Below are positions 3,145 through 64,000 of a stretch of 64,000 bases of DNA, piece by piece (position 1 is the first letter of the stretch; each line of letters begins with the position of its first letter). Source of the DNA: a virus. The notes under the pieces were generated by a model. The model did not search any database and was not told the DNA's origin. It saw nothing but the letters and a program-made list of their open reading frames with translations. The position numbers and the translations under genes were made by a program. Location of the stretch: IMG/VR virus record IMGVR_UViG_3300027749_000098, positions 1 to 64,000 of that record. One strand, given 5' to 3'.

Positions 3145-3173
3145 ATTATACTATAGACTTAAAAATAAGTCAA
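3145..3173 (-). promoter_or_regulatory. Sigma-70 early promoter for the TerD gene
   Basis: TTGACT (3173-3168), a 17-bp spacer and TATAAT (3150-3145) are present on the minus strand. The 19 bp at 3169-3187, covering the upstream gene's stop codon and the -35, are identical to those at 910-928. Confidence 0.8.
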
Positions 3174-3180
3174 GCACTTT

Positions 3181-3975
3181 TTACAAAGCACCCAAATAAT
3201 TCGCTACAGCAGGTAAGTTACCTTGGAACTGATAACTACCAACATGAATACAATTAACCCATGGAGCCATCCAAACTTCAATTCCAATTTTTCTGCATTG
3301 TTGACAGAAATGATAATCTTCGCTTAATACGCGATTTGATTCTTCATCGATTTCAACATTAAAATATGAATGAATTTTACGGTCTCCACCAAAATGTTGT
3401 GTACCAACGTGATCAGGAGTATATTCGTATTGAGGAAATGCCTCTTTAAACTTACCTAAAACGTCTTTACGAATCATCATCATACCAGTTCCGATTTCAA
3501 GAACTTGTAATGGTTCAGTGACATTAAATTGTGTAGTACCAGCAACAGGATTAAACACAATATCACCACCCAAACGTTCTAATTCACCAGCTGAGATATT
3601 CGGATTCTTAATAATTGCTTTTTTAATATTATCCCATTTAATTGTTTTCTTTGGGTACGGAGCGCCAATAATATCTTTATCTAATACTAACATGGCAATA
3701 ACATCCATTGCATTAAAACCAATATCAGCATCAATAAACATCATATGAGAACAATCAGAACGTAAAAATTCATCAACTAAATAATTTCTTGCTCTCTGAA
3801 TCAAACTTTCATTAAATAAGAAAGAGAATTTAACTTCAACTCCATATTGCAATGCAGCCATTTGTAAATCTAAACAAGATTTCATATAAGCACCAAGGCA
3901 ACTACCGCCATACATTGGAGTAGCAACAAATAGTTTTTTGCCTTGTAGGTTTTCTTTTGATAATTTAATTTCCAT
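3181..3975 (-). CDS. GT-A type glycosyltransferase
   Basis: The protein (264 residues) begins KKLFVATPMYGG and carries MMFIDADIGF near residues 78-87, where DAD is the DxD-type metal/nucleotide-sugar motif of GT-A glycosyltransferases. The pattern NESLIQRARN before the DxD and 'IGAPYPKK' after it are typical of a family common in T4-like phages of aquatic bacteria. Its acceptor is not known; modified DNA or a virion protein are both possible. The ribosome binding site is weak. The stop codon lies within the conserved promoter cassette of the next gene. It is separate from the second glycosyltransferase at 14.6 kb. Confidence 0.75.
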   Translation of the reverse strand: MEIKLSKENLQGKKLFVATPMYGGSCLGAYMKSCLDLQMAALQYGVEVKFSFLFNESLIQRARNYLVDEFLRSDCSHMMFIDADIGFNAMDVIAMLVLDKDIIGAPYPKKTIKWDNIKKAIIKNPNISAGELERLGGDIVFNPVAGTTQFNVTEPLQVLEIGTGMMMIRKDVLGKFKEAFPQYEYTPDHVGTQHFGGDRKIHSYFNVEIDEESNRVLSEDYHFCQQCRKIGIEVWMAPWVNCIHVGSYQFQGNLPAVANYLGAL

Positions 3976-4287: not shown

Positions 4288-4885
4288 TTTTACCTCTCTT
4301 TTTCGTAATTATGTGACTCTTTACAAATTTCTTAATTTTTTTATTTAGAGCAGTTTCAGCTCGTTCTAGGACAAATTTAGAAACTTTAGTTTTAAAATCA
4401 ATTCCATTTAATCTATCTATTCCTTGTTGAATAATTCTTGAAGTTAAACCATCGAACCTAGTCATCTTTTCATTTCCTTCGAAATCTTGATATGAAACAA
4501 TAACTGTAGTAGGGCGTTTAACTGCAATTAATAAACCCATATTACTTAAATCAGATTCTTCTAATAAAATTTCGCCATGCGATTCAATAACAATAGGGTT
4601 AAAAAATGCAACAAAATTATCCTCAGCGCCAGCAACTAATACTTTGTGTTCTAATCCGCATTGATTTGCAGCAATTCCATATACTTTATGGAATTTACAT
4701 GTTGCAATTAACTTTGAAGCAATTTCGCTAGAATTTAATTCAGTATTGGTAAAATCGAAGTGTTTTAACTTTGTAGTTAAAACTGGATCTTTTTGATCAC
4801 ATAATTCATAACCAAGAAATTGAGGTTCAGGCACTGCTGCAGCCTGAGAAACTACATCAGCAGTATTATATATAAACTCACTCAT
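4274..4885 (-). CDS. Peptide deformylase-like protein without active-site residues
   Basis: The 203-residue protein has the order of peptide deformylase motifs. Motif 1 is GIAANQ (70-75; normally GLAAPQ). Motif 2 is ESDLS (110-114; normally EGCLS). Motif 3 is QGIDRLNG (154-161; normally HEIDHLNG). The metal ligands Cys, His and His are replaced by Asp112, Gln154 and Arg158, and the catalytic Glu by Gly155. Removal of formyl groups is therefore not expected. A lysine-rich C-terminal tail (about 183-203) is added. The surrounding fold residues (FFNPIVIE, VSYQDFEGN) are well kept, so this looks like a maintained pseudoenzyme, perhaps binding ribosomes or nascent peptides (inference). It overlaps gp46-C by 4 nt. 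Confidence 0.8.
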   Translation of the reverse strand: MSEFIYNTADVVSQAAAVPEPQFLGYELCDQKDPVLTTKLKHFDFTNTELNSSEIASKLIATCKFHKVYGIAANQCGLEHKVLVAGAEDNFVAFFNPIVIESHGEILLEESDLSNMGLLIAVKRPTTVIVSYQDFEGNEKMTRFDGLTSRIIQQGIDRLNGIDFKTKVSKFVLERAETALNKKIKKFVKSHIITKKRGKNGKK

Positions 4886-6855
4886 TGTATAACCTTCATC
4901 TTTGAAAAGTTTTTTATTTTTTCGAACTTTAATACAGTATCGAATTTATCTGATACTTGATCAGACTTATGACTAATAACAAATATATTTGTACTTTTAT
5001 CAACTGATGATAATAAATTCATAAAAACATCAGTACCCCCAGTATCAAGACTGCCGTCCATTATTTCGTCAAGAATTAATAAATTGGTATTTACTGAATT
5101 TTTTAATCTAGCTAGTTGTCTAAATGAAAATAAAATAGCTAAATCTAACCTAGTTTTTTCGCCCTCAGAAAAATTTGCATAAGTAAATTCATCTCTATGA
5201 CGCGATTTAATTACTTCTTCAAAATTTTCATTAATATTAAAATTAACAAAGAAATCTAATTGAGCCAAATACTGATTTATATATTTATTTAAAATAGGAA
5301 GATACTGTTTAATTATACGAGTTTTAATTCCTCCATCTTTTAACATAACAGAAATAAAATCATAATAACTTTTTTCATTTATATATTCTTCATATTTTTC
5401 AACATAAATATCTAATGATTCAATTAATTCTTGCAGTTTATCTGAACCATTATCAGTGGTATTTGATGAATCTTTTAGTTGATCAATTTCATTAGAAACT
5501 AGTTTTATATATTTTTGCGCAGAAACAATATTTGAATTTTTCTCTGATAAAATACTTGAATTCTTTAAAATTTTAGCGTTTATCTTGGATATAGCAACTA
5601 ATCTATCAGTAGCAACCTTTAATTCCTTAGATAATTTTTTTTCGCCATCAACTAATTCTATTAATTTAGTGCTATTTTTTTCAATAATTTCCTGTTTAAA
5701 CACAGAATTAATAGATTGACGGCATGTTGGACAATTATCATTTGAATGATAGAATGTATTATCTTTTTCTACCTTAGATATATTATCGCGCAATTTACCT
5801 TCAATTAATAATAATTTATTTTTCTTTTTTTCAACGACATCCATATCAGAAATTTCATGACCCAGTCGTTCGTTTTCAGACAATAACTCAGAGATAGTTT
5901 GCTGTAAATCTTCAACTTCAACACAAGTATTTGCAATTAATTCTTTTTTTCTAAGAATTAGTTCATCAGAAACTTGATTGGTACGTTTAATATTTTGTTT
6001 TTGAAGTTCTATTTTGTCTTTAAATAATTCAATATTAAATTTACAATCTTGAACAGTTTCTTTAATTCCAGATACTTTATCTTTAACAATAGAGTTCATG
6101 TTAGAAAAAATCTGAATATCAAGCAAATCTTCAATAACAGAGCGTCTATCTCCAGCTGATAACTGCATAAAAGGAGTATATCTAGCTGAGCCAAGAATAA
6201 CAACTTGAGTAAAAGATTTATAACTCATTTTAAGTATATATCTTTCTAATTGTTCTTGATAATCTTTTACTTTTGCGTCTTGGCGAACTAAATCACCATT
6301 ACAATAAACTTCAAAAATATTTGGTTTAATACCACGAATAATTTTATATTTGTTTGGACCAATAGAAAACTCAACTTCAGTAACCAATTCAGATTTATTA
6401 ATTGAATTTATTAAACCGCTTTTGTTAATTTTTCTAAAAGGTTTTCCATAAAGGGCAAAGGTGATTGCATCAATAAACGTTGAATTGTGTGATACCAAAC
6501 CATTAGCATAAAATTCCTTAACATCGGCAACTTGTAAATCAAAAAGATCTTCCTTAGTTTTTAAGTGTTTAATCAATTTAATTTTCACAGGACCGTTTTC
6601 TGTGAATAAAAAATCACCAACAGATAAATTTTTACTAGCAACCCAATTACAATCATTACTTAACATAAGATGATCTGGAGAAACTTTTAGGATTTCTCCA
6701 GATTCAGATTCAAGCTTTATCACATCAGATTTTTTAGCAGTTAAAGCTGCCCCTTCAATACATTTATATCCGAAACGAGTTTTTACAGAAAGCGTTCCTA
6801 TTAGATTTGGATATTTTTTATAAAATTGTACAACATCACCAACTGTAGTTTTCAT
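4882..6855 (-). CDS. gp46: gp46 recombination endonuclease large subunit, C-terminal part, with C-intein at its N-terminus
   Basis: Residues 1-124 are a C-intein: block B-like KVSPDHLML near 57-65, and the C-terminal splice motif FYANGLVSHN followed by Ser125 as the +1 nucleophile. From STFIDAITFALYGKPF onward the protein is T4 gp46 (SbcC/Rad50 ATPase): a zinc-hook CPTC near residue 375 between coiled coils, the ABC signature FSEGEKTR near 563, Walker B LLILDE near 593 and the H-loop ISHKS near 628. With gp47 it forms the nuclease that resects DNA ends for recombination-dependent replication. It lacks the P-loop, which is supplied by the separate N-half (7959-8159). Splicing would give 573 residues (T4: 560). 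The ATG overlaps the endonuclease stop as ATGA. Confidence 0.93.
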   Translation of the reverse strand: MKTTVGDVVQFYKKYPNLIGTLSVKTRFGYKCIEGAALTAKKSDVIKLESESGEILKVSPDHLMLSNDCNWVASKNLSVGDFLFTENGPVKIKLIKHLKTKEDLFDLQVADVKEFYANGLVSHNSTFIDAITFALYGKPFRKINKSGLINSINKSELVTEVEFSIGPNKYKIIRGIKPNIFEVYCNGDLVRQDAKVKDYQEQLERYILKMSYKSFTQVVILGSARYTPFMQLSAGDRRSVIEDLLDIQIFSNMNSIVKDKVSGIKETVQDCKFNIELFKDKIELQKQNIKRTNQVSDELILRKKELIANTCVEVEDLQQTISELLSENERLGHEISDMDVVEKKKNKLLLIEGKLRDNISKVEKDNTFYHSNDNCPTCRQSINSVFKQEIIEKNSTKLIELVDGEKKLSKELKVATDRLVAISKINAKILKNSSILSEKNSNIVSAQKYIKLVSNEIDQLKDSSNTTDNGSDKLQELIESLDIYVEKYEEYINEKSYYDFISVMLKDGGIKTRIIKQYLPILNKYINQYLAQLDFFVNFNINENFEEVIKSRHRDEFTYANFSEGEKTRLDLAILFSFRQLARLKNSVNTNLLILDEIMDGSLDTGGTDVFMNLLSSVDKSTNIFVISHKSDQVSDKFDTVLKFEKIKNFSKMKVIQ

Positions 6856-7907
6856 AATAAATTTTGCGTGTAAGTTTCAATAAATTGTTTATAGTCGTTT
6901 TTATTAGTCAGAATAACTGAACCAAAAGTAGATTCTTTATATTTCATTTTTTGTATATATACATCATCTGTATAGCCAGCTAATTCCACCCAAACATTAG
7001 AATTAATCAAATAAAAATCGCACCGCATTTTAGAGTTTGGATAATATTTTTCTATTATAAAATCTACACCATTTACAAACCCATTTTCAACTAACATATA
7101 GTAAAATAATATTTCATTAGAAGAACGAAGTAATTTATTTTCAACTTTCATCGAATACAAATAATTACCATGTTTACCTTTTAGTAATATTGGAGCATCA
7201 GTAGATTTAAACTCTAAAAACGTTCTTAACCAAGAATCAATATTTTCGGGTTTATCGTTAACCAACTCAAAATAATACGACTTTAAGTATTTCTTCTTAA
7301 AATTAACCATAGACAAATATAAATCAAATTCATCTAAATTTTTCAATATAAAGAGTTTTATATCCTCTAAAGAATAAAAAATTTCGCAATTTCTTGAGAT
7401 TAAATTTTCTACAAATTTTTGTCTACCAAAAATTTCTCCATATTTTTCAATAAATGTAGTTAATTTAAAAGTAGATTTTTTAGAATTTATTAGATTAAGT
7501 TCATCAACAGATTTAGAATTAAGTGTTGAATTCCATTTTTCTTGCCTATCGATCCAAATAGATAAACCTACATCATATCCATATTTCTGTATACATTTTT
7601 CTCTAGAAAAAGTTGATTGAATTTCAGAAACGCGTAAAATCGCTTCCTGAGTCGATAAACCTTTATATTCCCAGTATTCTATACATCTAGGAGAAAGACG
7701 TTTAAAACTTTCTTTAGGCTTGTTTGAATTGGTTTTAGCACCCTTTTTTTGATGTTCCAACCTCATTTCTTCAGCTTTTTCCAAATCCACGTTAAATTTA
7801 TGAATATAATATTCAACGTTAGTTGGCCTGCGAATTTTTATTTGATACTTAGCTTCTTCAATAGAATATCCTTTTTGTATCCAGGTTTCCAATTTAAACG
7901 CAGACAT
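6852..7907 (-). CDS. Free-standing homing endonuclease, PD-(D/E)XK/Vsr-like, inside fractured gp46
   Basis: The 351-residue protein lies between the two intein-bearing halves of gp46. The C-terminal third (about 250-351) has a PD-(D/E)XK/EDxHD-like pattern: NEILFYYML, then MRCDFYLI, then VWVELAG, then YIQKMKYKE and VILTNKN. The N-terminal part has repeated short helical units of the type YWEYKGLSTQEA and CIQKYGYDVG, a typical DNA-recognition arrangement in phage homing enzymes. Vsr-like nucleases in fractured split-intein genes are known from phage metagenomes. It has its own late promoter (7938-7945) and a good ribosome binding site (AGGGGTG). It probably cuts unoccupied gp46 alleles to spread the element; target and activity are inferred. 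Confidence 0.8.
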   Translation of the reverse strand: MSAFKLETWIQKGYSIEEAKYQIKIRRPTNVEYYIHKFNVDLEKAEEMRLEHQKKGAKTNSNKPKESFKRLSPRCIEYWEYKGLSTQEAILRVSEIQSTFSREKCIQKYGYDVGLSIWIDRQEKWNSTLNSKSVDELNLINSKKSTFKLTTFIEKYGEIFGRQKFVENLISRNCEIFYSLEDIKLFILKNLDEFDLYLSMVNFKKKYLKSYYFELVNDKPENIDSWLRTFLEFKSTDAPILLKGKHGNYLYSMKVENKLLRSSNEILFYYMLVENGFVNGVDFIIEKYYPNSKMRCDFYLINSNVWVELAGYTDDVYIQKMKYKESTFGSVILTNKNDYKQFIETYTQNLL

Positions 7908-7937
7908 AATTACACCCCTATTTACTTAATATAATTA

Positions 7938-7945
7938 TATTTATA
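7938..7945 (-). promoter_or_regulatory. Late promoter for the gp46 endonuclease and gp46-C
   Basis: TATAAATA on the minus strand, 31 nt upstream of the endonuclease ATG, in the 51-nt gap after the gp46 N-half. It would let the endonuclease and C-half be transcribed independently of gp47 and the N-half. Confidence 0.6.
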
Positions 7946-7958
7946 ATTTTTAAATGGT

Positions 7959-8159
7959 CTAGGAAAGAAAATCTTTAAATAATTTTTCTATTTCAGGATT
8001 ATCAAATAACACATCAATTTCTGTAGATTTATGCAGGCATTTACCTTGCCCGTTAATTCCAGTGGATAAAGTAGTTCTATCTTTATTTAATTCAATTTCA
8101 GTAAAGTTATTTCCATAGGAAAGAAAGTTTTTAAACCGGATTGTTTCAAAAATTACCAT
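7959..8159 (-). CDS. gp46: gp46 N-terminal part with short N-intein
   Basis: A 66-residue protein. Residues 1-40 are the start of gp46 (FETIRFKNFLSYGNN, then TLSTGINGQGK) and end inside the Walker A motif after its Lys40. Residues 41-66, CLHKSTEIDVLFD onward, are an N-intein beginning with the nucleophile Cys41. The partner C-intein is on 4882-6855. At 26 residues this N-intein is much shorter than that of usual split inteins and resembles the atypical split of terminase inteins. The gene overlaps the end of gp47 (TAATG), so all three are co-expressed. Without trans-splicing the P-loop would be broken and no active gp46 made. Confidence 0.92.
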   Translation of the reverse strand: MVIFETIRFKNFLSYGNNFTEIELNKDRTTLSTGINGQGKCLHKSTEIDVLFDNPEIEKLFKDFLS

Positions 8160-14600: not shown

Positions 14601-15410
14601 ATGAAATTGAATATTGCAATTCCTTCGTATAAACGATCTGATACGCTTAGAGATAAAACTTTAAGTGTATTGGAAAAATATAATGTAGATCCAAATACAG
14701 TAACAATCTTTGTTGCTAATGATGCCGAAAAGACTGCATACGAAACATCATTAAAAGATAACATTTATAACAAAAATATTGTTGTGGGTGTTGTTGGTAT
14801 GGGACCAATTAGAAACTTTATTAGAAATTATTATGATGAGGGGGAATTTGTTGTAAATTTTGATGATGATTTATCGAGTATTATGCGCAAAGCTCCTGCT
14901 GATGAAAAGAAAATGGAGCCAATTGAAGATATCCATAAAGAAGTATTTGAGCCAATGTATAATATTATGCAGGAGAACGAAAATAAGCTCTGTGGTGTCT
15001 ATGCAGCGTCGAATGCTTTTTTTATGAGTTATACCCCTAAGACTGGTTTATATTACTGCATTGGGTCGTTGTGGGGCTGCATTAACGATAAACATCAAGA
15101 TCGTATGGTTCAATTATGCGATAAAGAAGATTTTGAGCGAACTCTTCAACATTATGTTCTTGATGGTTCAGTTTCGCGATTAGACAATATTACTGTTATA
15201 TCCAAATATTATACTGAAGATGGAGGAATGCAAGTTGAACGAACTCTTGAACGTATTGATAAAAGTGCTGACGATTTAGTTCGTAGATTTCCAGATTTAT
15301 GTACAAAATACGTCCGTGAAACTACAGGTCACGCTGAATTACGCTTACGGGATACTAGTGGAGGTAAATATCAAAAATCCACTTCTTTTGATTTAGATAG
15401 TTTTTTCTAA
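14601..15410 (+). CDS. TET-associated-type glycosyltransferase (DNA base glycosylation)
   Basis: The 269-residue protein starts MKLNIAIPSYKRSDTLRDKT, the opening of a GT-A glycosyltransferase, and has FVVNFDDDLSS with DDD at 88-90 as the DxD site. It lies 8 nt after the TET/JBP gene and ends at a terminator, so the two make an exclusive operon. This matches the TAGT family, proposed to glycosylate hydroxymethyl bases produced by phage TET/JBP enzymes. Sugar donor and base are unknown. The C-terminus FDLDSFF repeats the L-D-x-F-F ending of the dioxygenase. The result would be hypermodified DNA resisting host restriction (inference). Confidence 0.75.
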   Translation: MKLNIAIPSYKRSDTLRDKTLSVLEKYNVDPNTVTIFVANDAEKTAYETSLKDNIYNKNIVVGVVGMGPIRNFIRNYYDEGEFVVNFDDDLSSIMRKAPADEKKMEPIEDIHKEVFEPMYNIMQENENKLCGVYAASNAFFMSYTPKTGLYYCIGSLWGCINDKHQDRMVQLCDKEDFERTLQHYVLDGSVSRLDNITVISKYYTEDGGMQVERTLERIDKSADDLVRRFPDLCTKYVRETTGHAELRLRDTSGGKYQKSTSFDLDSFF

Positions 15411-23598: not shown

Positions 23599-24828
23599 TT
23601 ACCAATAACTTTCAACTGGTTGTACAACTTCCCATAAATCTCCATCTTCTAACGTAAATCTATCCATTAATGGATTACTAAATTGCGGCATAGGTGGAAC
23701 ATCAATATCATCTTCTTTAATATAATTATTTTCTATTTGTAATCTTTTGCGAATATCAGTAGATGATAATTCTATAAATAATTTTTGAGTTGATAACCAA
23801 GCAAAAATAACTAAAGTCATCGCTAAATCATCATTTGCTCCTTCTTCAGCTGCAAATGAATTATTTGTTGCAATAAATCTAGTTAATTCGTATATTGTTT
23901 CGCTGGAATTAATTCGTAATTTATCAGTTTCAATTAAAGTCTTTAAAGTAGTACAACCAACACGTTTTACTAATGGACTCATATTAACGCCATTTTGTGT
24001 GGCTTTACCGTTCTCGCTTATTTGTTGAGCTTTTTTGTTTCCTGCATAAACTTTTAATACATTTTCATATTCTAAATCTTGAAATAAAGTATCAGCTACT
24101 GTTGGATTATTGTTTACTTCAATTAATACATATGCATTGTTATAATATTCTCCAGCCATTTTAATAATATCTGGAAATAACATTGGATGTAATTGATTAT
24201 TTCTATATGTAGCTACTTGTGTGTATGGAATTGTTGATACATCAAAAATAGAAAATGCAGCAAAATCCAAGTTTTTCCCTTCTGAGACGTCAACAGTCAT
24301 TGCATAGATATGATCTTTATCTATTTGTTTTTTAGTTTCATCATCAAATGATTCTTTAACCGGAGGGATAAATACATCCATTTCATTTGGAATTGTTATT
24401 CCAGCAAATATTTCATCATCTGTATCTAATGGATCTACTGCAACAAGAGTTTGTAATTTTGAACCATCGATTAATGTATTTGTAGATCCTAAAAATTCGC
24501 AATTATGCGATAAAATTCCATTAGTATAATAACATTTATCGTTTCCCGCATCTATGACATCAAAAACTTCTTCTAATTCAAAATTTTCAGAAATAAAATC
24601 AATTTTAGAAAATCCATGAATAGTCTCTATAAAATCTAAATCAGATAATTCGCTAATTTCTTTATAACCATCAAGAGTTTTTATTTTATGATCTATAGTA
24701 CAATCAAGAAAACAGTTATTTTGTGTTATAATCTGAACGGTTCGTTTTTTATGTAATTTATTTACACCTCTAAACTTTTCCCATCCATTTATAGTTTTTA
24801 TTTTATATTTTGTATTTTTCCCAAACAT
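23599..24828 (-). CDS. gp17: gp17 large terminase, C-terminal part (nuclease domain) with C-intein at its N-terminus
   Basis: Residues 1-109 are a C-intein: MFGKNTKYKIKTINGWEKF at the start, block-like TIDHKIKTLDGYKEI, and the end CYYTNGILSHN followed by Cys110 as +1 nucleophile. From CEFLGSTNTLI the protein is the terminase linker and RNase H-type nuclease: TVDVSEG (Asp180), LIEVNNN (Glu237) and GANDDLAMTLVIFAW (Asp333/334), matching T4 gp17 LDCSEG, IELNSTG and YHDDLVMS. Trans-splicing with 25447-26355 would give 571 residues (T4: 610). The C-intein resembles that of the atypically split terminase intein AceL-TerL. The ATG lies 26 nt inside the upstream HNH gene. Confidence 0.93.
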   Translation of the reverse strand: MFGKNTKYKIKTINGWEKFRGVNKLHKKRTVQIITQNNCFLDCTIDHKIKTLDGYKEISELSDLDFIETIHGFSKIDFISENFELEEVFDVIDAGNDKCYYTNGILSHNCEFLGSTNTLIDGSKLQTLVAVDPLDTDDEIFAGITIPNEMDVFIPPVKESFDDETKKQIDKDHIYAMTVDVSEGKNLDFAAFSIFDVSTIPYTQVATYRNNQLHPMLFPDIIKMAGEYYNNAYVLIEVNNNPTVADTLFQDLEYENVLKVYAGNKKAQQISENGKATQNGVNMSPLVKRVGCTTLKTLIETDKLRINSSETIYELTRFIATNNSFAAEEGANDDLAMTLVIFAWLSTQKLFIELSSTDIRKRLQIENNYIKEDDIDVPPMPQFSNPLMDRFTLEDGDLWEVVQPVESYW

Positions 24829-25399
24829 GTTTCCAACTTTTTTTGGTTAATAATCGCATTAAAGCTGCTGGAGTTAATTCATAAGTATTTGCATAAAACT
24901 TAGAAAAACTCCATTCATATGAATCAACTCTACCGTTTCTTTGTGTTATTCCTTCTGACTCTAATTTTGGTCTACTAAAATATAATTCTAATATTTCTAT
25001 AACTTGGTTTTCTTTTAATTTTGCTTTAGAATTTAATTCCCCAGTGCTATTTTTAGAACGTTTTATTTTTAAATCTTCGGAAACAAATATTTTTTTACCT
25101 TTATTCCATGGAATAGTTCCTTTTTTTACTCCTCCAATTCCAGGTCTTTTAATTCCTTTTTGTATATTAGAAATTTGTTCTGTTGACATATCCATACGTT
25201 TCATTATCATGGCGCAAGCTCCGAATTCCTCTTGCGCTTGATGAATATTAAAATGCTCGCATATTGATACGCATTTCAAATTGGTAATATCATTATTATT
25301 CCTATTACCGTCTATATGGTGTATTTCATATGTTCTTCCTTCATAATCTTTTGGAATACTACCATAATGCTCTTCCCATATTTTTCTATGTTTTGACAT
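24803..25399 (-). CDS. HNH homing endonuclease inside fractured terminase gene
   Basis: The 198-residue protein has an N-terminal HNH core, RTYEIHHIDGNRNNNDITNL at about 22-41, continuing to a downstream EHFNIH. It is followed by a NUMOD3-like segment (GGVKKGTIPWNKGKKI) and a helical C-terminal part (LTPAALMRLLTKKSWKHVW) likely to bind DNA. It sits between the two intein-bearing terminase halves, so it probably spreads this element by cutting intein-free terminase genes. It has its own late promoter and overlaps the C-half by 26 nt. It belongs to a different nuclease family from the enzyme inside gp46. Confidence 0.9.
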   Translation of the reverse strand: MSKHRKIWEEHYGSIPKDYEGRTYEIHHIDGNRNNNDITNLKCVSICEHFNIHQAQEEFGACAMIMKRMDMSTEQISNIQKGIKRPGIGGVKKGTIPWNKGKKIFVSEDLKIKRSKNSTGELNSKAKLKENQVIEILELYFSRPKLESEGITQRNGRVDSYEWSFSKFYANTYELTPAALMRLLTKKSWKHVWEKYKI

Positions 25400-25425
25400 A
25401 AATATGCTCCTATTATAAATATAAT

Positions 25426-25433
25426 TATTTATA
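25426..25433 (-). promoter_or_regulatory. Late promoter for the HNH gene and gp17-C
   Basis: TATAAATA on the minus strand, 27 nt before the HNH ATG, in the 47-nt gap after the terminase N-half. It occupies the same relative place as the box at 7938 in the gp46 locus. Confidence 0.65.
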
Positions 25434-25446
25434 ATATTATGAATTC

Positions 25447-26355
25447 TTAGGAATTCATAAGCGAATGTAATTTACGCATTGTAATTTTTTGTTCATTACC
25501 AAATTCATCCTGTATTTCAACTATTGTATCCCCAGTAACGCATGCAAATTCTTGGTTAAACTGACGAGCAGAGGTATTTCTAATCGTAGTTTCTTTCCAT
25601 AATTCGTCGCGTCCTGGAACTCTAGACCAATGAATATCAACAGCTTTATAATCGCTCTTTTTACTTACCGCATCCATCCACATTTTATAGTATAAATTCA
25701 TACCACGAGGAGTAGATACAATAATAATTTTTGTTGTTTTACCTGATGAAATTACAGGATATGTTGAAGTAAAGAATTCTTCGGCTAAGTTATTATGAAC
25801 GTGAGCAAATTCGTCCATAAATACAAGGTTAAACGATCCACCACGAACAGAACTAGCAGCAGTAGAAGCCGCTAACATTTTTGATCCATTTTCTAGTTCA
25901 ATACTGCCTTTGTTCCATATAACAATACCTTGTTGTAACCACATAGGTAAATTTTCATAGGCTAATTGATATCGAGATAGAATCTCAACAGCTAACGATT
26001 TTTTATTAGCTGTTATAGCAATATTATAATTTTCAGTAAATAATGATAACCACAAAAGATAACCAACAGATGTTGTGGTTTTACCTGATTGTCGACCAAT
26101 CCTTACAATAGAAAATCTATTTTCGTGAAATGCTTGAACCATTTCTTCTTGATAATCATGCATATCAAAATAGACAAGACCTTCATCAAGATTAATAATT
26201 TTTACATAATTACGAATAAAATATATTGGATCGTTAACGCACTTTCTAAGTTCATCTGCTTGGTGTTGATCATATTCCCAATTTTCAATACCAGCTCTTC
26301 TTAGATTAGGGTTATCTCTATAATATAATTTATTGCTACCCTCAAAATCAATCAT
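25447..26355 (-). CDS. gp17: gp17 large terminase, N-terminal part (ATPase) with short N-intein
   Basis: Residues 1-271 form the packaging ATPase: Walker A GRQSGKTT (87-94), Walker B NLVFMDE (176-182) and coupling motif STPRG (214-218), as in T4 gp17. Residues 272-302, CVTGDTIVEIQDEFG onward, are a 31-residue N-intein starting with Cys272 right after NQEFA. In T4 the same point (QFRQEHTAAFEG) is the ATPase-nuclease junction. The protein stops inside the intein, and its C-intein partner is encoded at 23599-24828. Without splicing, ATPase and nuclease remain separate polypeptides. It follows small terminase gp16 by 3 nt. Confidence 0.93.
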   Translation of the reverse strand: MIDFEGSNKLYYRDNPNLRRAGIENWEYDQHQADELRKCVNDPIYFIRNYVKIINLDEGLVYFDMHDYQEEMVQAFHENRFSIVRIGRQSGKTTTSVGYLLWLSLFTENYNIAITANKKSLAVEILSRYQLAYENLPMWLQQGIVIWNKGSIELENGSKMLAASTAASSVRGGSFNLVFMDEFAHVHNNLAEEFFTSTYPVISSGKTTKIIIVSTPRGMNLYYKMWMDAVSKKSDYKAVDIHWSRVPGRDELWKETTIRNTSARQFNQEFACVTGDTIVEIQDEFGNEQKITMRKLHSLMNS

Positions 26356-60255: not shown

Positions 60256-61047
60256 ATGTCATTTTTATCAGATACATTATCAGACTTATCGTCATTATTT
60301 AATGGTGGTGGACCACAAACAAAAGATGACAAATACCAAAATGCATTAAGAGAATTATTAGCATATGATGTTGGTAGAACAGCATATTTTGATGTGTTTA
60401 TACCACTAAGAGCTGATGGAACAGCATCAGCAAAATATTTTTGTCACTCTGCGGAACTTCCTGGAGAATCTACTGCTACTGTATCTCAAAAAATATATGG
60501 AGTAACGGAAAAGTTTTCAGTAATGACTGGATATAATGATATAACATTATCATTTTACACTTATGGGTCAGAAGTTGAAAATATTAGAAAAATGTTTCTA
60601 AGTTGGATTACGTTTATAACTGGAAGAAGTGAATCATTTAAAGGTAGCGGAAGTACGACATATAATGTTAAATACAAAAGCGAATACACTAAAGATATAG
60701 TAATAACTCAATATGCTATAGATGGAAAACCATTATTAAAAGTAAAATTATTTAGCGCGTTTCCAGTTGCAATAAATCAAGTTCCGCTTGATTGGTCAGC
60801 TCAAAATCAAGCTCAATCTCTTAATGTAACTTTTGCATATACAGAATACGAATATGAATTTTTATCTGTTAATTCAAATGGAGCATATTCCAGAGGACCA
60901 TTAGGAGAATTATTTGGAACAGCAATACAAACAGCAGGAATAGTAAATTCAATAACAGGAGCATTTAAAAGCGGAAATCCATTAGCAGCAACATCTACGT
61001 TATCAAATTTTAGATTATCATCACCAGAACCATATCAAAGAAAATAG
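60256..61047 (+). CDS. gp54: gp54 baseplate tail-tube initiator
   Basis: The 263-residue protein is of the tail-tube fold: YFDVFIPLRADGTASAKYFCHSAELPG, then KIYGVTEKFSVMTGYNDITLSFYTYGSEVENIRKMFLSWITF, then FSAFPVAINQVPLDWSAQNQAQSLNVTFAYTEYEY. This matches the gp54/gp19 scheme (T4 gp54: FGGCIPVAVSSPELSYEDNNTITTFNVTFAYR). In T4, gp48 and gp54 form the platform on which tube and sheath polymerise. AAGGA lies just upstream of the ATG. The N- and C-termini are Ser/Gly-rich. Confidence 0.85.
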   Translation: MSFLSDTLSDLSSLFNGGGPQTKDDKYQNALRELLAYDVGRTAYFDVFIPLRADGTASAKYFCHSAELPGESTATVSQKIYGVTEKFSVMTGYNDITLSFYTYGSEVENIRKMFLSWITFITGRSESFKGSGSTTYNVKYKSEYTKDIVITQYAIDGKPLLKVKLFSAFPVAINQVPLDWSAQNQAQSLNVTFAYTEYEYEFLSVNSNGAYSRGPLGELFGTAIQTAGIVNSITGAFKSGNPLAATSTLSNFRLSSPEPYQRK

Positions 61048-61059
61048 GATTGAAAAATA

Positions 61060-61782
61060 ATGAATGTATTACCACAAATTGACACCCCAACATATACTGT
61101 TAAATTACCTATATCTGAATTAACGGTAAAATATAGACCATACAAAGTAAAAGAACAAAAAATTCTGAGTATGGCAAAAGAATCTGAGGAAAAAAATACA
61201 TTAGTAGAAGCTATATTACAAGTAGCACAAAATTGTATGATTGACCCAATAGATGTTAGAGAATTACCTATTACCGATGTTGAGTATTTTTATTATACAT
61301 TAAGAGCAAGATCTGAATCAGAAGTTTTAGAATTAAGATATAAATGCGAAAACGTCCATGAAGATAAAGTTTGTGGAACAATTATGGATTATGATTTAAA
61401 TTTATTAACTGAATTAGAAGTAATTAAAAGCGATATTTCTCCAATTATTGAAGTTACAGATAAAGTTGGATTAAAGATGCGCCATTCAAGATTTGAACTT
61501 GATACTATAGGCGATAAAATTCCTACTCCAGATGAAATTTTAGAAATTATTGCAAGAAATGTTGAATTTATTTATGATGAAAATTCAGCATATAGCGGTC
61601 AAGATGTGCCGATTGCGAATATTATTAATTGGATAGGCGAATTACCGCCAGAAAAATATATTAAAATTGAGGAGTTTTTACAAAATGAACCTAAAATAGT
61701 TAAAAAATTAGATATAACTTGTAAAAAATGCGGGTTTGATCACCATATTGAAGTGAGAGATATTTTTGATTTTTTTATCTAA
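61060..61782 (+). CDS. gp26: gp26 baseplate hub assembly protein (zero-frame product)
   Basis: The 240-residue protein belongs to the T4 gp26 family (T4_baseplate): YTVKLPISELTVKYRPYKVKEQKILSMAKES at the start, VAQNCMIDPIDVRELPITDVEYFYYTLRARSESEV, a Cys pair CENVHEDKVC near 106-115 and a second ITCKKCGFDHHIEV near the end, together a likely zinc ribbon. It acts in hub assembly. The last codons, GAT TTT TTT ATC TAA, form a T7 slippery site, after which the -1 frame is open for 64 codons, so a longer fusion product is likely. Confidence 0.85.
   Translation: MNVLPQIDTPTYTVKLPISELTVKYRPYKVKEQKILSMAKESEEKNTLVEAILQVAQNCMIDPIDVRELPITDVEYFYYTLRARSESEVLELRYKCENVHEDKVCGTIMDYDLNLLTELEVIKSDISPIIEVTDKVGLKMRHSRFELDTIGDKIPTPDEILEIIARNVEFIYDENSAYSGQDVPIANIINWIGELPPEKYIKIEEFLQNEPKIVKKLDITCKKCGFDHHIEVRDIFDFFI
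61770..61776 (+). promoter_or_regulatory. Probable -1 ribosomal frameshift site (T TTT TTT)
   Basis: Seven T in phase T-TTT-TTT lie just before the gp26 stop at 61780. Slipping by -1 reads TTT TTT TAT CTA ATT and stays open to the TAA at 61971. This mirrors G/GT tail chaperone frameshifts of other long-tailed phages. Confidence 0.7.
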
Positions 61783-61973
61783 TTCTTGGTAATGTTAATC
61801 TTTCAACATATTATAAAACAAACTTTTCTTTAATGCAGCACCATAAGTATAGTTTACATGAGTTGGAAGAAATGATCCCTTGGGAAAGGGAAATTTATAT
61901 TGGTTTATTGGTGCAGTATTTAAAAGAAAAAGAAGAGAAACGTAAACAACAAGAAGCTAACAGGAATATTTAA
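61776..61973 (+). CDS. T-like tail assembly chaperone extension (-1 frame of gp26), or separate 46-codon gene
   Basis: The -1 frame downstream of the slippery site encodes YLILGNVNLSTYYKTNFSL then MQHHKYSLHELEEMIPWEREIYIGLL and VQYLKEKEEKRKQQEANRNI. The 'YS..ELEEMIPWERE.Y..LL' core is typical of T-domains of tail assembly chaperones located right before tape-measure genes. A free start at ATG 61833 is possible, but the sequence before it (AACTTTTCTTTA) has no Shine-Dalgarno. The stop overlaps the next start (TAATG). It probably binds the tape-measure protein during tail assembly. Confidence 0.75.
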   Translation, partial: YLILGNVNLSTYYKTNFSLMQHHKYSLHELEEMIPWEREIYIGLLVQYLKEKEEKRKQQEANRNI

Positions 61974-64000
61974 TGGCAGACAATACCAATGATAAAAAAT
62001 CGTCTTGGATAGAAGATAGACTTAAACAAAATTTATCTTCTGCAGCTCAACTTGGTTCGCAAGTTGGAGCTAAAGCCCAAGAAATTAAACAAGATTACAA
62101 GAAATTTGGAAAAGAAGCTAGCGAACTTCCAGGACAGTTATCAAGAAATAGAGCAGATAGAGAAGCAATATTAGCAAGAGAAAGTAAATCTAATGCATTA
62201 ACGGAAAGCCAAAAAGAGCAATTAAAAAATATTTCAAATGCTGGAGATGCACAAAAATTTGTTGATGCTTCTATATTGGGCAATGAAAATGGAGATTATG
62301 GAGCAGGACAAAGCGTATATAATGATTCTATAAAAAGCGCAGGAAAAGCGTGGCTTGGATTTGGCGAAGATGTTGCTGTAGCAGCTCTAGGTGGACCAGC
62401 AATAGGTGCTGCAGCTAAAATTGGAACTAAATTAGGCGGCGCAGCAATTAAAGGTGGATCTTCTGTATTTAAAGGGGCAGCAGAAGCTATAGGATCAAAA
62501 CTACCTTCTTTAAAAAGTGTTAGTAATGTATTTAAAAGTGAAGCAGATATTGCCGCAGAAGCAAAGGTAGCCGAAAAAGCAAGAAGAGAAGCAGCAAGAG
62601 AAGCAAAACGAGAAGAAATACGTGGAAATGCAACACGTTCAAAAAATTCAACTTTTGATTCTAATGCTGAATCTGCAGCAAAAAATGAAGCTGCAGCAGC
62701 AGAAGCAAAGGTAGCTGAAAAAGCAGCAGCTAAAGAAAAAAACGCGGATCCATGGACTGGAGAAACCGTAAACCAAAAAATGTCAAAACCTTTAAAACTA
62801 GATAGAATAGATACTGCACCTAAAAAAAGTATGATACCAAAAGCACTTTTAGGAGCTGCTGCTTTAGATGCAGGTTATGGTATCTATAAAGATCCAGAAG
62901 GTGCTTGGAATACTGCTAAAGAATTCGGTAACGATCTTGTTCACACTGGAATACATGGAGTCGCATCATTAACAGATGACCCAGAAGCAAATGAAAAAAA
63001 CTGGAATGAAGCATGGGACGGAACAAATTTAGGAGATTTGGGAGACGCGGCTTCGACTGCAGCATCAGTAGCTACCGGAGCATATGTTGGTTCTCAAGGA
63101 AATCCATTTAGAGGAGCAGCATCAGGAATTGTTGGTGGGATAGGCGGATTATTTGCTGCAAATAGATCTTCTGAAGCTACATTAAGTTCAATGCCATCAG
63201 GCGGAGATTCTGGAATGACTGGTGAATCGCATTTTGGTAGCGATGATATGTCAGGAAAAAGTGCTGTTGAGATATTAAATAAAATTTATGGCGTAATGTC
63301 CAGATTATACGATACTACTTTAACTATTTCCAGAGATACAGCAGCATTAGTTCGTGGTGCATCTTCTCAAGATGCAGCTAGAGATGCATCAACTGTAAAT
63401 CTAATGGCAAGACAGAATGAAGGCGGATCATCTCCAATGTTTTATGGTGGAGGCGAAGGCGGCGGAAGCGAAGGTGGTGGAGGCGAAGGTAAAAAAGATA
63501 AAGAAAAAGGTAAAGGATTTTTCTCTAGTTTAATGGATAAAATTCCTAAAAAAGGAATAGCAGGAACAGCATTATCAGCTATTAGTGGTGCTGGAAATAA
63601 ACTTGCTAAGGCTGCAAAATTTCTTGGAGGTAATAAAGGAAAAATTGCTGCTGGACTAGGAGCAGGAGCTATGCTTGTTTCTAAAGATTTGGACGAAGAA
63701 TTAGAGGGACAAGGTATAACTGATCCATATGCAAAAGAAGCGATTAAAGCTAAAATGATGTCTGAATCTGGCGGCAAAGGTGGATCAGAAGGAAATTGGA
63801 CTAAAACTTCCAATTCAAGAATTAGAGAAAAAATGCCGCAATTAGCTCATATGAGCGACCAAGAATTAAATGACCTTAAATCTCAAGGAAATGAAGTATT
63901 TTTAGATAAAGCATATGAGAAATATGGTGGATTTAAATATCGCGGTAGAGGCTTAACTCAATTAACTGGAAAGGCAAATTATGAAGCTGCAGATAAAGCA
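61973..64000 (+). CDS. Tape-measure-like tail protein with GH19 lysozyme domain, 3' end outside the window
   Basis: The visible 676 codons are open to the window edge. Residues 1-590 are Ala/Gly/Lys-rich and helical (AAEAKVAEKARREAAREAKR), with small hydrophobic Gly/Ala segments such as FGEDVAVAALGGPAIGAAAK, as in tape-measure or hub proteins. A Gly/Glu linker (GGGEGGGSEGGGGEG) lies near 487-502. From about 600 a GH19 chitinase/lysozyme domain starts: AKMMSESGGKGG with the probable catalytic Glu, then KYGGFKYRGRGLTQLTGKANYE. It could cut peptidoglycan during infection, replacing the lysozyme domain missing from gp5. Position after gp26 and the T-like extension fits a tape measure (gp29 place). 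Confidence 0.8.
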   Translation, partial: MADNTNDKKSSWIEDRLKQNLSSAAQLGSQVGAKAQEIKQDYKKFGKEASELPGQLSRNRADREAILARESKSNALTESQKEQLKNISNAGDAQKFVDASILGNENGDYGAGQSVYNDSIKSAGKAWLGFGEDVAVAALGGPAIGAAAKIGTKLGGAAIKGGSSVFKGAAEAIGSKLPSLKSVSNVFKSEADIAAEAKVAEKARREAAREAKREEIRGNATRSKNSTFDSNAESAAKNEAAAAEAKVAEKAAAKEKNADPWTGETVNQKMSKPLKLDRIDTAPKKSMIPKALLGAAALDAGYGIYKDPEGAWNTAKEFGNDLVHTGIHGVASLTDDPEANEKNWNEAWDGTNLGDLGDAASTAASVATGAYVGSQGNPFRGAASGIVGGIGGLFAANRSSEATLSSMPSGGDSGMTGESHFGSDDMSGKSAVEILNKIYGVMSRLYDTTLTISRDTAALVRGASSQDAARDASTVNLMARQNEGGSSPMFYGGGEGGGSEGGGGEGKKDKEKGKGFFSSLMDKIPKKGIAGTALSAISGAGNKLAKAAKFLGGNKGKIAAGLGAGAMLVSKDLDEELEGQGITDPYAKEAIKAKMMSESGGKGGSEGNWTKTSNSRIREKMPQLAHMSDQELNDLKSQGNEVFLDKAYEKYGGFKYRGRGLTQLTGKANYEAADKA

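Follow-up and report, generated by a model that had tools for sequence, protein, structure and literature searches.

The gp26 homologue near the end of the analyzed window very likely undergoes a programmed -1 frameshift that yields a gp26-gp51 fusion, a putative tail assembly chaperone. The initial annotation had proposed such a shift from gp26 into a T-like extension before the tape measure gene, and -1 frameshifting is now strongly favored because of the comparative evidence, namely the slip site itself, coding that starts at its Phe-Phe pair, the absence of an internal ATG start in some relatives, and the fused protein of T4. The window, by which we mean the whole 64,000-nt stretch of DNA that was analyzed, makes up most of a 71.4 kb virus record, carries T4-type structural genes, and has a GC content of 31.6%; a megablast search of 24 kb of it against the phage collection gave no DNA match.

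Overall organization of the gp26-gp51 locus

All genes of the locus lie on the + strand. A tail tube protein gene (60256–61047; phrog_45, E = 9e-26; PF23849, E = 2e-7) is followed by the gp26 homologue (61060–61782), which encodes the short form, a putative TAC-N of 240 residues with the C-terminus ...RDIFDFFI. The protein matches PF12322 (T4_baseplate) over profile positions 2–218 of 219 (E = 6e-44, 150.7 bits against a cutoff of 24.5), as well as phrog_150 (T4 gp26; E = 1e-45). Downstream of gp51, a gene in the tape-measure position starts at 61973 and runs past the window end at 64000; it is preceded by AGGAA at 61962–61966, and its start overlaps the gp51 stop (TAATG). Searches with family profiles returned no firm tape-measure match for this gene, and its syntenic counterpart in HTVC008M is annotated as a putative tail tape measure.

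Read in the gp26 frame, the 3' end of the gene is GAT TTT TTT ATC TAA, with the stop at 61780–61782. It contains the slippery heptamer T_TTT_TTT (61770–61776), phased as a tandem -1 slip requires, and the heptamer does lie, as first reported, four codons before the gp26 stop if the stop is counted. A TGA (61767–61769) closes the -1 frame just 5' of the T run, so that this frame opens at 61770 and remains open until the TAA at 61971–61973. A -1 shift can therefore join the two frames only within 61770–61782, a stretch of 13 bases with the heptamer inside it. The -1 frame extension, a gp51 homologue and putative TAC-C, spans 61776–61973. It comprises 65 codons after the second Phe, plus the stop, and not the 64 originally given, although the frame is open as described and the predicted fusion length of 304 residues is correct (239 + 65).

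In the mechanism we propose, a minority of the ribosomes translating gp26 would slip back by one base with Phe-tRNAs on the two TTT codons of the heptamer. The slipped tRNAs would re-pair on TTT TTT, the gp26 stop would be missed, and 65 residues would be added to give a gp26-gp51 protein of about 304 residues; the 240-residue gp26 would remain the abundant product. On the model of lambda gpG/gpGT, gp26 would be the short (TAC-N) and the fusion the long (TAC-NC) tail assembly chaperone, with gp26 coating the tape measure protein and the extension recruiting tail tube subunits. The comparisons described below show the layout of the locus, the deep conservation of its slip site, the coding nature of the -1 frame from that site onward, and the homology to the fused gp51 of T4, whereas the slip itself and its efficiency we infer.

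Conservation of the slip site

The comparison drew on about 350 loci of viral contigs and isolates, 343 of them usable. The gp51 reading frame is -1 relative to gp26 in 342 of the 343, and an in-phase T_TTT_TTN is present in all 342 of these (N = C in 249, T in 54, A in 37, and G in 2), in nearly every case 0–2 codons before the gp26 stop; the loci are related by descent, and these counts are not independent events. The slip site and the open -1 frame are thus kept in relatives, as the initial annotation had asked to be checked, although the T7 form itself occurs in only the 54 and T6C is the commonest. The codon before TTT TTN ends in T in 270 of 270 unique loci, where codon usage within each gene would give 171, and the residue that it encodes varies between Ser, Asn, Asp, Ala, and Thr. 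Elsewhere in the same genes, the T_TTT_TTN form is used in 32 of 553 Phe-Phe or Phe-Leu pairs. The same slip site is found in isolates of the Kyanoviridae, several Straboviridae, and the Pootjesviridae, and in Sinorhizobium phage phiM7. A candidate exception with gp51 in frame 0 (L050) was rejected, as a frame change in the contig interrupts its gp26 ORF further upstream and its T6C site is intact.

The window ORFs, 20,193 codons in all, contain 13 instances of in-phase T6N, and only two of 50 ORFs have one among their last few codons, gp26 and an ORF ending at 15410. The latter, with an in-phase TTTTTTC and a 35-codon open frame, was dismissed as a second case, as a terminator-like hairpin follows and no such extension was seen.

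Several loci depart from this arrangement. In Stenotrophomonas phage IME-SM1 (L033, around 3170–3260), the slip site has five T and gp51 is in the +1 frame, which may be due to a sequencing error in the homopolymer or to another mode of decoding. A gp51-like -1 frame follows gp26 without T6 in Kuttervirus, Klebsiella phage Croc, and Vibrio phages K444 and YC (L032, L354, L355, and L356), where gp26 ends in ATT TTC ATT TAA, CTT TTT GCG TAA, or GCT TTC ATG TAA; these ends suggest slippage on a single Phe codon and not a tandem slip.

Coding sequence begins at the slip site

The -1 frame product matches phrog_634 (gp51) over profile positions 58–120 of 121 (E = 1.2e-27). The extension, likened at the outset to T-domains, belongs to the known gp51 family. 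Part of the product additionally aligns with the C-terminal end of phrog_150, a hint that the two parts form one protein in some phages. When the -1 frame proteins are aligned, conservation begins exactly at the invariant slippery FF and continues as FFRLxLxHDNLxNYYKTNFSLMQHHKYSLTELExMIPWER, and the residues 5' of the FF are unrelated among loci. Differences among relatives in the region from the gp26 stop to the ATG at 61833 number 6897, 3818, and 13698 at -1 frame codon positions 1, 2, and 3, respectively; judged by this pattern, the "intergenic" stretch evolves as -1 frame coding sequence.

Comparison with T4 and other tail assembly chaperones

The proteins of T4 provide a natural counterpart to the proposed fusion. 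Both T4 proteins, gp26 and gp51, align to PF12322 over almost the entire profile and are homologues of the gp26 described here, but only gp51 continues into an extension, which is the same C-terminal extension as that found in the -1 frame. By this homology, T4 gp51 is a hard-wired long form in which a gp26-like domain is joined in frame to the extension. Unlike the arrangement here, the short and long forms of T4 are two separate, divergently oriented genes, with no frameshifting. Frameshifting is reportedly kept in several T4-like groups, and genes 26 and 51 are said to serve in T4. A comparison between the slip-site phages and T4 is a natural experiment that bears on why frameshifting is used by tailed phages to fix the ratio of short to long form.

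The identification of tail assembly chaperones in T4-like phages goes back to Vladimirov, Gautam & Davidson (Virology 2022), as cited in PMC10885494 and PMC12846349. PRFect (PMC10885494) cites that work for T4-like phages in which the short and the fused long chaperone each have a gene of their own and no frameshifting is used, and PMC12846349 cites it for poly-T slippery sequences in the TAC-N genes of T4-like phages. As represented in these citations, the 2022 report overtakes two statements of the initial annotation, that frameshifting is not established for T4-type gp26 and that this locus may reveal the missing T4-type equivalent; both reflect the state of knowledge in a 2016 review (PMC5009743), where T4 is still given as the exception. 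The gene pair is the same (gp26/gp51 families), as is the use of poly-T slippery sites to the extent that the 2022 work is cited for them, and the frameshift here is very probably a well-supported new example of a mechanism already described in T4-like phages. This contig differs from its T4-like relatives in having T7 where most have T6C, in its weak upstream Shine-Dalgarno (SD)-like element, and in belonging to a lineage without a DNA match in the phage collection. The comparative set extends the T4-like case with a large number of loci that share an invariant slip site.

The arrangement resembles lambda gpG/gpGT in that a short protein and its -1 frameshifted C-terminal extension are encoded between the tail tube gene and the tape-measure position; however, the protein family is unrelated (PF12322), and the poly-T site lies at the very end of the short gene. 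The TAC frameshift of the Vandenendeviridae and Andersonviridae (GTTTTT, PMC12846349) likewise involves a -1 slip at a run of T close to the end of TAC-N and a -1 frame that is open through an "intergenic" stretch, but in other phage families and with another slippery motif.

Gene order, the pairing of a short with a long form, and the 2022 assignment lead us to infer the chaperone role of gp26 and of gp26-gp51. An AlphaFold2 model of gp26 has a mean pLDDT of 89, and the PDB match of highest probability among those listed for the predicted fold is the HK97 tail assembly chaperone 2ob9, a weak match (probability 0.66, E = 0.57, TM-score 0.21 on the query) that is only suggestive as a pointer to a TAC role. 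Profile searches of PDB sequences gave no match with gp26 and chance-level matches only with gp51.

Elements around the slip site

An upstream SD-like element is expected of bacterial -1 frameshift stimulators, and the placement of such an element upstream of a slip site is known from dnaX. Most relatives have GGAGGG or a similar SD-like sequence 8–10 nt upstream of the slip site. The duplex energy is -4 kcal/mol or lower at 8 nt in 83% of relatives, and at the best offset the mean is -6.3 kcal/mol. The element sits in conserved EGL codons and is therefore partly protein-driven. Against a null in which synonymous codons were resampled, its mean best energy is -6.76 kcal/mol compared with -5.27 kcal/mol, a difference whose standard error is optimistic owing to phylogenetic non-independence; by this comparison of sequences, the element is stronger than the protein sequence requires.

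In this phage, GAAGTGAGAG stands where relatives have the GGAGGG motif. A search for a strong SD-like sequence about 10 nt upstream, as in dnaX-like stimulation, found none, the best candidate being a weak GAAGTGA (61750–61756) 13 nt upstream of the slip site with an energy of -4.1 kcal/mol. Downstream, we found no hairpin more stable than in shuffled sequences (z = -0.08 for 74 nt and -0.33 in a second computation). The weakness of both usual stimulators here speaks against the proposed frameshift, as do the poor TAC fold match and the lack of a tape-measure family match for the downstream gene. Among relatives, the 70 nt after the slip site have a mean z of -1.24, and about 35% of the 233 loci fall below -2. 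Unusually stable RNA just downstream of the slip site, unlike in this phage, was observed in P-SSM2 (L027), L012, L253, and others.

The upstream SD-like element and its weakness here are the only part of these observations that may be new. A broader proposal, which we regard as possible but short of probable, is that a conserved SD-like element 8–10 nt 5' of T_TTT_TTN, selected beyond the protein sequence, sets -1 frameshifting across phages of the gp26/gp51 type, that it has been lost in some lineages, including this one, which would have T7 alone, and that relatives of the Ackermannviridae type slip on a single Phe codon. If true, this would mean that the frameshift rate, and hence the ratio of short to long chaperone, is tuned lineage by lineage.

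Alternative explanations

Annotators commonly call gp51 in relatives as a separate small gene, and most relatives have an ATG at the position corresponding to 61833–61835 here, from which a 46-residue protein could be made, possibly by translational coupling to gp26, with the T run being incidental. We consider this very unlikely. The initial annotation was right that this ATG lacks a ribosome-binding site: no SD-like sequence precedes it (TATAAAACAAACTTTTCTTTA), in contrast to the gene at 61973 with its AGGAA. Conservation of the protein starts about 20 codons upstream of the ATG, at the slip site, and the phase of T6N is invariant. Among 334 loci, 73 lack a start codon (ATG, GTG, or TTG) at the position of the ATG; the closest distinct relative, L003, which has a 92% identical gp26 and the same T7 run, has GTA there. 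Seven of 246 unique loci have no ATG, GTG, or TTG within 25 codons after the FF. In T4, moreover, the extension is covalently joined to the gp26-like domain. A separate gp51 start at 61833 was accordingly rejected, on the conservation pattern and the GTA in L003. In some relatives an ATG directly follows the gp26 stop, from which those phages may additionally make a separate gp51.

Slippage by RNA polymerase on the T run, giving mRNAs one base longer or shorter from which the fusion is translated, is slightly less credible still. Transcriptional slippage is known on long A or T runs, and a 7-base homopolymer is present here; however, in 288 of 342 relatives the run is six T followed by C, A, or G, which is short for polymerase slippage, and an additional SD-like element at a fixed upstream distance would act on ribosomes only. 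That the overlap arose by chance, by sequencing error, or by gene decay has a negligible probability. A homopolymer at a frame junction is a classic site of error and the genome is AT-rich, but the junction recurs in hundreds of contigs that were assembled independently, as well as in isolates from several phage families, and this conservation refutes the explanation. Under -1 frameshifting, the annotation would be corrected: the 46-residue "gp51", together with the seeming gap that precedes it, would form the C-terminal end of a frameshifted tail assembly chaperone.

Split genes elsewhere in the window

Two genes on the - strand of the window are split. A gp46-like recombination ATPase (4882–8159) is divided at its P-loop: the N-terminal half (7959–8159) has at its end an apparent short intein start (GQGK|CLHKSTEIDVL...), the C-terminal half (4882–6855) opens with the end of an intein (...VSHN|STFIDAI), and between them lies an endonuclease-like ORF (6852–7907). 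The locus resembles a split-intein "fractured gene". The terminase large subunit (23599–26355) is split likewise, into an N-terminal half at 25447–26355 (...FNQEFA|CVTGDTIVEI...) and a C-terminal half at 23599–24828 (...GILSHN|CEFLGSTNT), with an HNH-like ORF (24803–25399) between the two.
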